Shown here: piece by piece, positions 22,786-26,664 of the stretch | How positions within the stretch are numbered: position 1 is the stretch's first letter | How the letters are laid out: each line of letters opens with the position of its first letter | Assembly (NCBI GenBank): GCA_035627955.1 | Contig: DASPKU010000010.1 | Location: 1 to 64,000, forward strand | Origin: Phycisphaerales bacterium | Lineage (GTDB): Bacteria > Planctomycetota > Phycisphaerae > Phycisphaerales > UBA1924 | DNA length: 64,000 nt | Direction of reading: 5' to 3' | Notes under the pieces: model-generated | The model's database searches: none | The model's input: the letters and a program-made list of their open reading frames with translations, nothing else | What the model was told of the DNA's origin: nothing | Made by a program: the position numbers and the translations under genes

Positions 22786-23607
22786 CTACCGCCACTCGTG
22801 GGCATCTGGCACGTAGTGCGGCGCGTTGTCGCCCACGGAGCCGATGCGGTGGAGCTCATCAATCATCAACTCGGGGCTGGCGCGCCAGGCGCGGGCGCTG
22901 CCGTCCGCGGCCACGGCCATCGACAGGTCGCCCGCGTGCCGGAAGGAGGTCGTCGGCGAGTCGTTGGGCACCCACTCCGTGCCCGACCAGAGCATGGGCG
23001 GGTCGAGGAGTGCCGAGTTGCGCGGCGTGCCCGCAGGGAGCATCGCGTCGGCGAAAACGAAGAGGCTCGAGGGCTGCTGGATGTCGGCGAGCCGCCGCCA
23101 TGGGCGGTGGCCAATGGTGAACGCCCAGCCGGGCGTCTTGCTCGGCGAGAGGTAGTAGCCGTTGTAGCCGTACGTGCTCGTGGGCTCGCGGCTGGGGCCC
23201 TGCGGCTGGTACGTGCCCCAGGGCTGCTCCGGGCACTCGTACACCGATCGCTGCGCGAGTGAGGCGTCGAGGTAGGGCGCGATGAAGCCGCGGGCGTGGT
23301 CGACGGGGGTGGTGCTGCTGCCGTGCGTGCCCCACCAGTAGATGACGGGGCCGCTGCCGATGTCCTGCGTGGACCAATAGGCGAGGGGGATGGCGCGGTC
23401 GGCGTGCGTGCCGGCGTAGAGGGTCCACGCGGCCCCCAGCTGCCGCTGGTTGGCCAGGCAGCGCGTGCCGCGGGCGGAGGCGCGGGCCGCGCCGAGCGAG
23501 GGCAGCAGCACGCCCACGAGCAGCGCGATGATGGCGATGACCACCAGCAGCTCGATGAGCGTGAAGGCCCGACGCGTGGTCAGGCTCGTGGTCAGATGCG
23601 CGGTCAC
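22786..23607 (-). CDS. type II secretion/type IV pilus-like pseudopilin
   Basis: 273 residues from the GTG at 23607. The N-terminus has the prepilin peptidase site and helix: [20 protein letters not shown] followed by [12 protein letters not shown]. The rest ([21 protein letters not shown], then a C-terminal [20 protein letters not shown]) is the planctomycete pseudopilin plan with an H-x-n-DG-type tail. Its start overlaps the stop of the beta-propeller gene (GTGA, 23604-23607), so it is the third gene of the riboswitch-controlled operon. It likely sits in the envelope as part of a secretion pseudopilus or as a surface fibre. Confidence 0.85.
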
Positions 23608-25304
23608 GGGCGGCCCCCAATCAGCAGGGCGCTCTCGGGGGCGCGCAAGGCGTTGATGAGCAGTGAGCGGTCCGCGGCGGTGGGCTGGCCGTCGCGGTCG
23701 AGGTCGCGGGCGGCGGTAGAGAGTGAGGATTCCCACGTGTAGAGGTCGCCCGTGCTAACGACGAAATCCTGCGACAGGTCGAGCATCGCGGGCGTGGGGC
23801 CGAAGTGCACGAGACCGGCGGTGCCGACTGAGATTAGAGCGGCGCCGGGGGCGGCGGGGCTGCCGCCGGCGCCGGTGGTGTGGGCCTGCACGAAAGCCGG
23901 GCTGAAGGGCGGCGCGTCGAGGTCGAGCACGAACAGCTCGTGCGAGGGGGAGGAGAACGTGCCGCTGGGGGGGATCAGCCCCACCGCCAGCGTGGTGCGT
24001 CCGCCGAACGTGCTGGCGACCGGCTGCTGCGTCCAGCCGCCCACGGCGAGGTGCTCGCCGGGGTCAATGAAGCCGTTGAGATTGAGGTCGTTCCATGTCG
24101 CGACCGCGGAGTTCCACAGCAGCACGCCGCTGCTGCCGAGGTCCTGGAAGAGCTCGACGGCGGGGAGCGAGCCGAAGCCCTGGATGCCGGTGGAGAGTGC
24201 GATGCGCCCGCCGGGCAGCGGCACGGGGATGGACATCGTGCGGTTGCAGGGCGTGGACCAGATAAGCGAGCCGTCGCGGGCACTCACCTTGACGAGGTTT
24301 CCGGCGTCGAGGCCGCCGCTGAAGGCGTAGGTGGCCGCGAGGAGGCTGGGGGGCTCGCGGCTACGCGCCGGCGGCAGGACGCAGAGGCCGCCGAAGAAGC
24401 CCTCGGGGTGAGGGTTCTCGAAGGTGAAGATCGAAGATGGAACATCGGCGAAGGCGTCGAACGCCTCGATCTTCCCCGCGTTGCCGCCCCCGCCGCCCGC
24501 GCCCAGCGTCGCCACGTACACGTGCCCCAGGCCGCCCATTGCAGAGGGCAAGTACGCGGGGCTGTTGCCAGAGCTGCCGCCGATGGGTGCGGACCACACG
24601 ATTGCCCCGGGCTGGCGCGGGTTGGTCGGCGAAAGCGGGGCCGTGTTGATGCAGTAGAGCTTGGCCGCGGTGCTGAAGCCGTCATAGTCGGTGATGAAGA
24701 GCCGTCCGGGGCGGCCCGGCTCGTTGACCACCAGCGGCGAGGCGTTGACGACGCTGCGGGTGAGCTGCGCCTGCCAGCGCTGGGCACCGGTGGCCTGGTC
24801 GAAGGCGGTGACAAAGCGCTGCGAGGCGAAGATGACGGTGCCCGCGCGATCGTCGAGCACGGGGCCGGTGTCGGAGTCGAGCACGGTGCTGGCGACGGGC
24901 ATCCACCAGCGGACGGCGCCGGTGCTGCGGTCGAAGGCGAAGAGGCGGGTCTGGTTCGCGGGCTGGCCGGGCGGGCTGACGCGCCCCACGGCGAACACGG
25001 CGTCGCGCGAGACGGCGGTGGGGGCCTGGCCGATGAAGCTGATGGTGTTGCCGTCGGCGTCGGTGGAGCGGGTCCACGTCGCGGCCAGCGGACGGTCGAT
25101 CGCAGCCAGCGGGTGCGGTGTCGTCGCGAGGCGGGACGGCCCCTGCCCGAGCGTGCTCCACGCCCCCGGCGGCGCGAGGTGCTGCAGCCCGACGGGTCCG
25201 CCGGGGTAGGCCGTCTGCGCGCGGAGCGAACATGGAAGATGGAACATCGACGCGAGGATGATCGCGATCTTCGATCTTCGATGTTGCCCGAAGCGCTGCG
25301 GCAT
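23604..25304 (-). CDS. exported PQQ-like beta-propeller protein with dockerin-like tail
   Basis: 566 residues. An Arg-rich start and a hydrophobic segment ([19 protein letters not shown]) act as a signal peptide. The body has repeated propeller blades typical of PQQ-like WD proteins ([52 protein letters not shown]). The C-terminus holds one type I dockerin-like loop ([20 protein letters not shown]). No catalytic residues recognised; a binding role is likely. It is the second gene after the cobalamin riboswitch. In Bacteroidota, surface beta-propellers (BtuG) capture B12, which makes an analogous role conceivable but unproven. An alternative GTG start lies at 25322. Confidence 0.8.
24426..24446. 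repeat. 7-bp array inside the beta-propeller gene
   Basis: Three heptamers, GAAGATC, GAAGATG, GAACATC, within coding sequence (they encode part of a DVPSSIFTF segment on the minus strand). The same units recur at 25228 and 26767-27070. Confidence 0.6.
25228..25290. repeat. 7-bp array forming the signal-peptide region of the beta-propeller gene
   Basis: Nine heptamers in register, starting GAACATG, GAAGATG, GAACATC and ending TTCGATC, TTCGATG, TTGCCCG. The two halves are roughly inverted. They lie within the codons of the predicted signal peptide. Confidence 0.65.
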
Positions 25305-25350
25305 CAAAGACCGCCCGCGCACCTCTCGGCACGCAGGCGGCTCTCCTCGA

Positions 25351-26187
25351 TCAGTGGGCGTGGCTCATGCGCCGGCGGCGGGTCGCCAGCAGCCCGGCGG
25401 CGCCAAGCACCACCACTCCCGCGGGCGCGGGCACCGGCGACACATCGGACATCGCGTCGATCTGGAGGTCACCGCTCGTGCCGAGGTAGGTGATCCGCAC
25501 GTAGCTGATGGAGCTCAGGCCGGTGCCTGCGAGGTCAACGCCGGTGCCGCCGCCCGAGCCGTCGTAGGCCGCGACGATCTGCGCGAGGTTCAGGCCCGCG
25601 GCGTCGAACGCCGGGTTCACCGGCTTGGTGAAGTCGGTGGGGATGAGGCCGTGCGGGCTGGTGAAGGGGTGCGTGACGTCGACGTATCCGAGCGTCGGGA
25701 ACAGGTGGTCGGGGCGGGCGCCGGTGATGGGGAACCACGTGGTGCCGTTCTGGCTCACCTCGATCACGCCCTGGTCACTGGCGCTGTACATCGAGCCGCT
25801 GGTGGTGTCCTCCGCGAGGTCACTGACGTAGAACGCGTTGCCGAAGATCAGCAGGTCGATGCCGAAGGGATTCAGCGGGTCGTCGGTCACGGGCTCATCG
25901 AAGCGCATGACCAGCGAGCCGCCCACGCCGATACCCACGAGCTCATTGGGCAGCCAGGGGGAGCTGAAGGGCGTGACCGCGCCGGGCCACTGGCCCTCGC
26001 CGGTGTAGCGCTCGGGCGACCCCACTGCATTCGCGGGGTCGTTGTACGCGGGGCTCGCGAGCACGCCGCTGGTGTAGGACACGACTTGGTCGGCCCACGG
26101 GTTCTGAGCGCGGGCGGTTCCGCACAGCCCGGCGACCAGCGCAACCGACGACAGCACGAGGCACGAACGAGAAGAACGAAGACGCAC
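25351..26187 (-). CDS. surface protein with PEP-CTERM-like tail, cobalamin-riboswitch controlled
   Basis: 278 residues from the GTG at 26187 (GGAG six bases upstream; in-frame upstream codons to 26271 are less likely). It has a signal peptide (LVLSSVALVAGLCGTARA), then a beta-rich body with GGSLVMRFDEPVTDDPLNPF, GIDLLIFGNAF and IEVSQNGTTWFPI. That pattern is shared, as I recall it, with 'cell surface protein' genes of B12-uptake loci in Bacteroidota. The tail VPAPAGVVVLGAAGLLATRRRR is PEP-CTERM-like. It is the first gene after the riboswitch, 227 bases downstream. The role in corrinoid capture is inferred from regulation and resemblance, not shown. Confidence 0.8.
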   Translation of the reverse strand: MRLRSSRSCLVLSSVALVAGLCGTARAQNPWADQVVSYTSGVLASPAYNDPANAVGSPERYTGEGQWPGAVTPFSSPWLPNELVGIGVGGSLVMRFDEPVTDDPLNPFGIDLLIFGNAFYVSDLAEDTTSGSMYSASDQGVIEVSQNGTTWFPITGARPDHLFPTLGYVDVTHPFTSPHGLIPTDFTKPVNPAFDAAGLNLAQIVAAYDGSGGGTGVDLAGTGLSSISYVRITYLGTSGDLQIDAMSDVSPVPAPAGVVVLGAAGLLATRRRRMSHAH

Positions 26188-26340: not shown

Positions 26341-26380
26341 GTCCTCATCCGAGGAGCACGATCATGAGGACATGATCGTG
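26341..26380 (-). promoter_or_regulatory. two mutually exclusive hairpins in the riboswitch leader
   Basis: Hairpin 1: perfect 10-bp stem CACGATCATG / CATGATCGTG with a 4-nt loop (26357-26380). Hairpin 2: 8-bp stem GTCCTCAT / ATGAGGAC (26364-26371 with 26341-26348). They share bases and cannot form together. They lie 35 bases after the aptamer, so they may be part of the expression platform. No U tract follows either. Confidence 0.5.
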
Positions 26381-26414
26381 GCACGCGGCCCGCGAGGGCC
26401 AACCAGCAACACGT

Positions 26415-26616
26415 TGTCGGCAGGTCTTCCGGCTCCGGGCTCCGCGGGTCCAACCTTCCCAGCCTCTCGGCGATCGCCTTGAGGCCAGTGGCCGGGATAG
26501 CTCCTGTTGGAACCATCCCCAGTGGGACCCGCATCAGCACCCGATACGGCGGCGCGTCCGCGGTGGGTTTACACCACACTTCCCTTTCGCACCCGCGGGC
26601 GGCGTCAATGCCGACA
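26415..26616 (-). promoter_or_regulatory. cobalamin riboswitch
   Basis: About 202 nt on the minus strand. P1 is closed by TGTCGGCA (26616-26609) pairing with TGCCGACA (26422-26415). The core reads GGTGCGAAAGGGAAGTGTGG, then TGTAAACCCACC and GCGGACGCGCCGCCGTA, matching the conserved GGGAA...GGTGnAA...CC...GCnG-CCCGC-ACUGUA block of RF00174. Then come GCCACTG and TGGGAAGG, and the B12 box AGCCGGAAGACCTGCC (26434-26419). The element controls B12-related genes in most bacteria. Here the first gene downstream is the PEP-CTERM surface protein. A TTGACA/TACGCT promoter lies just upstream. Confidence 0.92.
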
Positions 26617-26636
26617 GCGGGACCAACAACGCGGGC

Positions 26637-26664
26637 AGCGTATCAGGGCGGGGGCGGGTGTCAA
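26637..26664 (-). promoter_or_regulatory. putative sigma-70 promoter for the riboswitch operon
   Basis: On the minus strand, TTGACA (26664-26659), a 16-base spacer and TACGCT (26642-26637), about 20 bases before the start of the aptamer. The -35 is consensus, the -10 is weak. Confidence 0.55.

Follow-up and report, generated by a model that had tools for sequence, protein, structure and literature searches.

A BtuH-like protein behind a cobalamin riboswitch and in one predicted operon with a prepilin gene in a Phycisphaerales bacterium and its planctomycete relatives

The locus and its cobalamin riboswitch

The window (the whole stretch of DNA analysed here, 64,000 nucleotides of contig DASPKU010000010.1 from a Phycisphaerales bacterium) carries the following features.

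26402-26642, minus strand: cobalamin riboswitch aptamer (RF00174); cmscan 61.3 bits (gathering score 31.5), E = 1e-12, full model 1-189
26357-26380, minus strand: perfect 10-bp hairpin with a 4-nt loop between aptamer and gene; read in the sequence and paired in the folded leader
25351-26187, minus strand: predicted BtuH-like surface protein, 278 amino acids; GTG start; signal peptide, galactose-binding-like jelly-roll domain (about residues 28-250), and PEP-CTERM-like tail
23604-25247, minus strand: PQQ/BamB-like beta-propeller, 547 amino acids (open to a GTG at 25322, 572 amino acids), with a dockerin-like C-terminus; PF13360 38.4 bits (cut-off 27.6)
22786-23607, minus strand: prepilin/pseudopilin, 273 amino acids; PF07963 26.7 bits (cut-off 21.2); GTG start

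The BtuH-like gene lies in an open frame of 306 codons (26271-25351, minus strand); with the GTG at 26187 as start, the product is predicted to have 278 amino acids, and the part conserved among relatives falls inside this shorter frame. Genes were called with our own codon-usage script and no standard gene finder. Judging from the sequence matches across relatives, the frame is a real gene: matches at E ≤ 1e-3 were found in 52 of 61 genomes (the genome of the window and 60 relatives), and the core domain was matched in 50, with G045, G057, and secondary matches confined to the C-terminal tail left out of the latter count. An earlier note, made from the letters of the DNA alone, had described this open frame and its motifs, and GGSLVMRFDEPVTDDPLNPF, GNAF, and SQNGTTW are all present as described. 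The N-terminus, RSSRSCLVLSSVALVAGLCGTARA, resembles a signal peptide, and the protein ends in the tail VPAPAGVVVLGAAGLLATRRRR.

The start of the prepilin gene overlaps the stop codon of the propeller gene (GTGA), and the flanking genes on either side of the BtuH-like, propeller, and prepilin genes run in the opposite orientation. We read the riboswitch and the three genes as a single riboswitch operon. The propeller scores 13.9 bits with Dockerin_1 (cut-off, 22.9), and no btuB-, btuF-, btuC-, or btuD-like gene was found in the operon of the window.

The link to cobalamin suggested in the earlier note has a physical counterpart in the riboswitch directly upstream: RF00174 ends about 215 nt before the BtuH-like gene on the same strand, and it is the only RF00174 match in this genome (4.26 Mb, 95.7% complete). 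The leader as a whole folds with a z score of −3.05. The hairpin between aptamer and gene is a candidate part of the expression platform, possibly of an unusual type; since no run of T residues follows it, whether the leader acts as a terminator is undecided.

The same association recurs among the relatives. RF00174 was found at 61 places in 58 of the 61 genomes, 59 of them exceeding the gathering score (the riboswitches G013 and G012:C36 reach 27 bits, under Rfam's 31.5). As a rule there is one riboswitch per genome, mostly directed at the BtuH-like domain; at 49 of the 61 places a BtuH-like core follows on the same strand, no more than 3 kb away. Conversely, 49 of the 50 core matches have RF00174 upstream (same strand, within 3 kb), 47 of these above the gathering score, and the 50th sits at a contig end. 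The proposal that this protein resembles those of B12 loci was to fall if its family had no association with such loci; with nearly every core match behind a cobalamin riboswitch, that did not happen. In a second sample, the best 80 of 281 relatives' loci from GTDB, which overlaps with the 61-genome set, a strict pair of B12 boxes was present within 1.7 kb upstream at 53 of 80 loci (2 of 661 control windows), and Rfam, run on 9 of the 27 loci that lacked such a pair, detected a riboswitch in 7.

Fold, pocket, and anchor of the BtuH-like protein

Pfam and NCBIfam scans of the window protein gave nothing over cut-off (best NCBIfam match, LIC_13355, 17.2 of 120 bits), and a single-sequence search of the PDB gave nothing useful. 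DUF4465/BtuJ was tried as an assignment and rejected: the protein has no Pfam match to it at E ≤ 1, and the GTPAYF/NTPAY (HI loop) motif is absent. We describe the family by its two forms. The short form was aligned, without use of a pattern, from 22 sequences including that of the window, which are 36-51% identical to the window protein (alignment A1), and the long form, with the motifs GGFGGSITLGFD, GNAF, and NGNGLPDDEWY, from 11 sequences (A2). Members of a further set, A3, were picked by the pattern G[IV]D[LFI][LI][VI]FGN, so that its invariance at the pattern positions arises by construction, and conservation is quoted here from A1; L086 and L127 were omitted from A3, the match not being one open frame.

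The long-form profile matched BtuG1/BtuGH (8blw_B, E = 3.9e-30) and BtuH2 (7biz_A, E = 9.2e-24) in the PDB, and the short-form profile matched the long-form profile with an hhalign probability of 99.7 over 216 columns (E = 1.2e-26, a pairwise and not a database E value). The short-form profile alone found no BtuH structure directly, and the link of the window protein to BtuH is thus stepwise. With this reservation, the comparison with surface proteins of Bacteroides B12 loci proposed in the earlier note came out in its favour. All 11 long forms also match the NCBIfam LIC_13355 lipoprotein weakly (best E = 9.2e-7); this family, of Leptospira, may be B12-linked too.

The predicted structure of the window protein (AlphaFold, 79 sequences; pLDDT 89.2, pTM 0.84) leads to the same domain. 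In a Foldseek search of the PDB at E ≤ 1e-3, BtuG1 was the sole match (6.1e-6), and VIA-align ranked BtuH2 first (7biz_A, Z 13.6, rmsd 3.4, 143 aligned residues, 20% identity) and BtuG1 second (8blw_B, Z 13.4), with the next rows at 10.0 and below. The model fits the fold of 7biz residues about 317-592 with a clear gap to these next rows, which hold carbohydrate-binding (CBM32), discoidin-type, and other domains at Z 9-10. Since this fold class is common, the fold alone is no evidence of B12 binding. A search of a viral structure library at E ≤ 1e-3 gave two matches, one to a giant-virus protein and one to a protein without a name, with discoidin-type proteins below. The structural comparison, too, came out in favour of the earlier note. 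The "cell surface protein" of Bacteroides B12 loci to which that note pointed fits BtuH2 (BT_1956), annotated as a "putative cell surface protein"; BtuG1 (BT_1490), with its fused BtuH domain, bears the same label (PMC8941943).

The B12 contacts of BtuH2 include Gln333, Asn399 (a contact of the nucleotide loop), His476, Tyr510, Trp511, and Trp577 (PMC8941943). We placed residues by adding 100 to the 7biz index, which locates Gln333 as the Q of PAPGQ, Asn399 as the N of GNAF, and Trp577 as the W of GWLGE; His476, Tyr510, and Trp511 lie outside the alignment placement. The Asn aligned with Asn399 is kept in 21 of the 22 short forms, and no equivalent of Gln333 was found in the window protein or the other short forms of A1, so the pocket would appear only partly rebuilt in the short form (there are no binding data). 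The DxNxNGxxDD loop of BtuH2 is likewise missing from the short form. Among the 11 long forms as called, 6 have PAPGQ or PADGQ, the others mostly beginning later, and Trp577 is unconserved.

The tail of the window protein looks PEP-CTERM-like by eye (its shape fits a motif, a hydrophobic helix, and a basic end), and the relatives L075 and L077 have the plain VPEPA form. No curated sorting-signal model passes for the window protein, the highest score being that of GVDTG_CTERM with 14.9 of the 29 bits required. Exosortase (PF09721) was found in all 25 genomes searched, with two matches in the genome of the window. By eye, the signal peptide has no canonical lipobox, a Cys following AGL. A PEP-CTERM-like tail is present on the BtuH-like protein in 14 of 15 short-type operons with a C2 propeller; in long-type operons, it is the C3 protein that has one (22 of 23), and the BtuH-like protein mostly has a dockerin-like tail or none. 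Judging from these counts, made with rough regular expressions that miscall some tails, the sorting signal appears to shift from one putative catcher to the other. The earlier note's suggestion of the same capture domain with a different sorting solution is supported by the BtuH-domain homology, fits the tail of the window protein by its shape, and is too narrow for the relatives, whose tails are PEP-CTERM-like or dockerin-like.

Operon partners and routes for B12

The B12-dependent methionine synthase MetH (Met_synt_B12) was present in 41 of 41 genomes, and CbiC, our single marker for corrin-ring synthesis, in none of the 41 (the control search was positive in 7 of 14 well-known genomes); these planctomycetes therefore probably must import B12. 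FecCD permeases, a broad family, were detected in 38 of 41 genomes (13 of 14 controls), with only weak matches in some relatives (G017, G021), and Peripla_BP_2 in 22 of 25, weakly in the genome of the window. PF00437 ATPases occurred in 25 of 25 genomes, which says little because all 14 controls have them too. At the outer membrane, a TonB barrel was found in 16 of 41 genomes and a TonB plug in the same 16, leaving 25 draft genomes without a recognisable TonB-dependent barrel or plug. These include 21 of the 25 tested genomes of the window's own family, most of which thus have no known outer-membrane gate, as far as draft genomes tell. The riboswitch-prepilin operon is carried by 23 of the 25 TonB-less genomes (the other two are G005, which shows no riboswitch, and G041, where a BtuH-like gene and a prepilin gene share a contig that ends before the upstream part) and by 13 of the 16 TonB-positive ones.

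The single TonB receptor of the genome of the window was considered as a BtuB and rejected: it reaches 100.4 of 599.7 bits with TIGR01779, has TOL_0244 as its nearest model (525.9 of 645 bits), and lies behind no riboswitch. In the same genome, the strongest FecCD permease gene (L170:8048-9043) lies about 3 kb from the gene for B12-dependent methionine synthase (L170:12155-14920), with no BtuD- or BtuF-like neighbours recognised by eye.

Two types of operon can be told apart. The short BtuH-like form occurs with a C2 propeller at 15 places, the BtuH-like gene coming first; the long form occurs with a C3 protein at 23 (two of which also have a C2 match), here behind the C3 propeller-like gene. 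Neither propeller was recognisable as BtuG by profile. Against the PDB, the C2 profile matched BamB (1.4e-10), and the C3 profile gave only weak matches (E of 0.0041 or higher, including YncE at 0.012 and TolB at 0.022), none to BtuG; the name "C3 propeller" is our inference from the weak YncE and TolB matches. The c3 genes of L055-L065 (e.g., L055:5567-6505) encode a riboswitch-proximal, propeller-like PEP-CTERM protein with weak PDB matches that is itself a candidate B12 binder.

A prepilin gene lies downstream, within 6 kb, of 54 of the 61 riboswitches. Of the seven without one, three are cut by a contig end (G027, G060, and G041:C6). At G048 (L154), the sole cobalamin riboswitch precedes a TonB-dependent receptor gene, and the 4.7 kb left of the contig hold no prepilin; G050:C102 is followed by a short GSGAN-type protein; and the other two are G025 and G012:C36, a second riboswitch of G012 (G012:C35) preceding a C2 propeller and a prepilin. 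Twelve riboswitches lack a core match. Behind several of them lie, with a prepilin, either proteins that by eye are divergent BtuH-like ones (L148, L150, L152, and L156) or members of a PEP-CTERM family that we call GSGAN (L149, L155, and L157). In the GTDB sample (the best 80 of 281), a prepilin follows in 68 loci at a lenient threshold, and 58 pass a strict threshold with a length filter. In the Pirellulales loci L075, L077, L079, L136, and L144, a prepilin starts at most 400 nt after RF00174 in five of the five looked at; in L079 (Lacipirellula limnantheis) and L144, the prepilin is followed by a GSGAN protein and a BtuH-like protein, so that the order differs.

The GSGAN proteins ("GSGAN..LVIDW..WGYRWDG"), with PEP-CTERM or dockerin tails, occur under cobalamin riboswitches and, in Pirellulales, beside BtuH-like genes (members are L149:11923-12597, L157:2387-3013, L144:5455-6417, and L079:6721-7686). 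Searches of NCBIfam with three members, Pfam with two, and the PDB with one matched only the tail signals, and we regard the family as a candidate new B12-binding family. A small cysteine protein (about 60-100 amino acids) with a GCGMCEPYV-like motif is also found behind the prepilin (L044:6854-7063, L039, L043, L050, L057, L152, and L156). By eye it resembles BFD-type [2Fe-2S] proteins; the one member scanned had no Pfam match.

The window pilin meets the criteria for a type IV pilin or pseudopilin, with a class III signal (PF07963) and a long N-terminal helix. Its model (pLDDT 79) has the shape of a pilin, a helix at residues 17-67 followed by a beta domain, and its closest solved structure is PilA4 at only Z 5.2. 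What such a protein does behind a cobalamin riboswitch is inferred and not shown. One possibility extends, and does not compete with, the account of the BtuH-like protein preferred below: the operon would be the outer-membrane route for B12 in planctomycetes that lack BtuB, with surface catchers holding the vitamin and a pseudopilus, driven by type II secretion or type IV pilus ATPases, carrying or pulling it to the periplasm. We hold this only tentatively, the odds being somewhat against it. It draws support from the linkage of prepilin and riboswitch, from the prevalence of the operon in genomes without TonB barrel or plug, and from the TonB receptor that takes the place of the pilin behind the G048 riboswitch. 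The operon pilins are also a group of their own: the 54 score 153-328 bits over nearly the full pilin profile, compared with 32-110 bits for nine further prepilin-like frames in these loci (a tenth, with 177 bits, adjoins a BtuH-like gene at a contig end in L053), with the caveat that 33 of the pilins counted had gone into this profile, which also served for the census of 54. A second profile, A6, derived from short-type loci, separates operon pilins clearly in short-type genomes (in the genome of the window, 276 bits versus 100 for the next match). For 18 of 21 genomes its best match, among the matches listed, fell within the operon behind the riboswitch; the exceptions were G041 (beside the BtuH-like gene), G008 (beside a C2-type propeller, L188, in a genome where no riboswitch was found), and G005 (no full-length match).

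In cultured planctomycetes, dextran has been described to bind to pili-like fibres located at crateriform structures; the same authors give about 600 Da as the limit for porins and consider the uptake system still to be characterised (PMC5394234). Taken with the constant pseudopilin partner, this makes a B12-loaded pseudopilus a reasonable hypothesis. The reservations are several. Because 13 of 16 TonB-positive genomes also have the operon, it is no simple substitute for TonB receptors; a pore may have escaped recognition, and genes may be absent from draft assemblies; the ATPases, being present in every control, do not discriminate; in long-type genomes, the margin of A6 over other pilins is small among the matches listed (121.6 versus 112.7 bits in G004, 111.7 versus 101.2 in G006); and, as the plain alternative, the prepilin could be a helper of secretion, display, or surface assembly. 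We know of no pilus that imports B12.

Alternatively, the prepilin might be one of the generic pilin-like proteins of planctomycetes, present in the operon by chance, with B12 entering through an unknown porin or a divergent TonB receptor. Such proteins are indeed numerous (41 A6 matches at E ≤ 1e-8 in the genome of the window, among the matches listed), this genome does have one TonB receptor, and the riboswitches G050:C102 and G025 have more than 5 kb of sequence behind them with neither pilin nor BtuB. We consider this explanation, too, rather less likely than not: operon pilins match over nearly their full length and others mostly in the N-terminal part, the linkage holds across families with differing neighbour genes and in all five Pirellulales loci looked at, and the receptor fits TOL_0244 and not BtuB.

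A putative surface catcher compared with known systems

The best explanation, to which we assign a probability of about 0.82, is that the window protein is a surface-displayed catcher of B12 (cobamides) that belongs to a planctomycetal short-form subfamily of BtuH, ends in a tail processed by exosortase, and is made from a riboswitch-controlled operon. Its homology, its fold, the riboswitch, and the conservation of the operon were established by computation; B12 binding, surface location, and repression by B12 are inferred, without biochemical evidence. It is improbable that the protein is instead a CBM32- or discoidin-like jelly-roll that binds carbohydrate or matrix and not B12, with the riboswitch reporting B12 status as a signal for something else: such domains fill much of the fold list under BtuH, Gln333 is missing from the short form, and PEP-CTERM proteins are usually linked to the extracellular matrix, but BtuH2 and BtuG1 lead the next rows by 3.4 Z units, sequence matches tie these two to long-form sisters from operons of this kind, and the usually single riboswitch of a genome mostly points at this very domain.

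As a surface B12 catcher, the protein would be exported by its signal peptide and held at the surface by its PEP-CTERM-like, exosortase-processed tail in place of a lipid. As long as the cell has sufficient B12, the riboswitch presumably keeps the three genes silent. Under B12 scarcity the operon would be on, and the catcher, the beta-propeller as a second surface protein, and the dedicated prepilin would be made; catcher and propeller would be exported, anchored by exosortase or docked, and B12 would be caught at the surface. An inner-membrane importer of the FecCD type would finish uptake. For the outer-membrane step, in B. theta the work of BtuB with BtuG (PMC10404256), the mechanism is open, and the constant partner here is the pseudopilin; that it aids the transfer of captured B12 across the outer membrane is the least certain part of the proposal.

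Put in its widest form, many planctomycetes would import B12 with neither BtuB nor another TonB-dependent receptor, through a riboswitch-controlled "capture pseudopilus" of exosortase-anchored or dockerin-tagged BtuH-like and propeller catchers with a dedicated pseudopilin. This is an inference that we regard as doubtful on present evidence. If true, it would be a new outer-membrane route for a large nutrient and would offer a molecular handle on the uncharacterised uptake of macromolecules by planctomycetes. How large molecules pass the planctomycete outer membrane is an open question, and a riboswitch operon of few genes makes it testable; the named isolate Lacipirellula limnantheis carries both a prepilin and a BtuH-like gene, in a different order. 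We found no published report of the operon in the open-access literature (subscription papers and preprints were outside the search). The BtuH domain is known, and its planctomycetal subfamily, with its anchors and its pseudopilin operon, is without report in the literature searched.

Several known systems resemble parts of this one. Planctomycetal DUF1559/prepilin-type proteins share the prepilin N-terminus, and the operon pilin of L044 passes the DUF1559 model (25.8 versus 23.3 bits), whereas the pilins of the window (14.9) and of L032 (22.3) stay under that cut-off and operon pilins far outscore most other prepilin-like frames in their loci. DUF4465/BtuJ proteins, including the planctomycete protein "Pan," are likewise secreted jelly-roll B12-binding proteins found beyond Bacteroidota and are riboswitch linked in B. 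theta (PMC13398666); the window protein differs in lacking both a DUF4465 match and the loop motif given there. Since the planctomycete DUF4465 protein was shown to bind B12 (PMC13398666), capture of B12 at planctomycete surfaces becomes more plausible. BtuG1/BtuGH (BT_1490, 8blw chain B) pairs a propeller with a BtuH domain in one protein, which planctomycetes have as two neighbouring genes; unlike BtuG1, which rides on BtuB1, the planctomycete propellers cannot be recognised as BtuG by profile.

Closest are BtuH2 (BT_1956, 7biz) and BtuH1 of Bacteroides thetaiotaomicron, with a homologous domain and the same control by a cobalamin riboswitch. The planctomycete proteins differ from them in having no canonical lipobox and no Ig-like domains, a PEP-CTERM-like or dockerin-like tail, a short form without Gln333 and the NGxxDD loop, and an operon that has no BtuB and is linked to a prepilin. 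Because the lipoprotein anchor (judged by eye) and the btuB/btuG neighbours of the Bacteroides type are lacking, and the operon of the window has no TonB receptor, we place the protein in the BtuH domain superfamily without calling it a BtuH orthologue. Gut Bacteroidetes are the bacteria for which BtuH-type catchers of B12 at the cell surface have been reported; in Planctomycetota this domain now appears behind a riboswitch of the same kind, together with a partner that resembles a pilin and with its surface sorting solved in another way.
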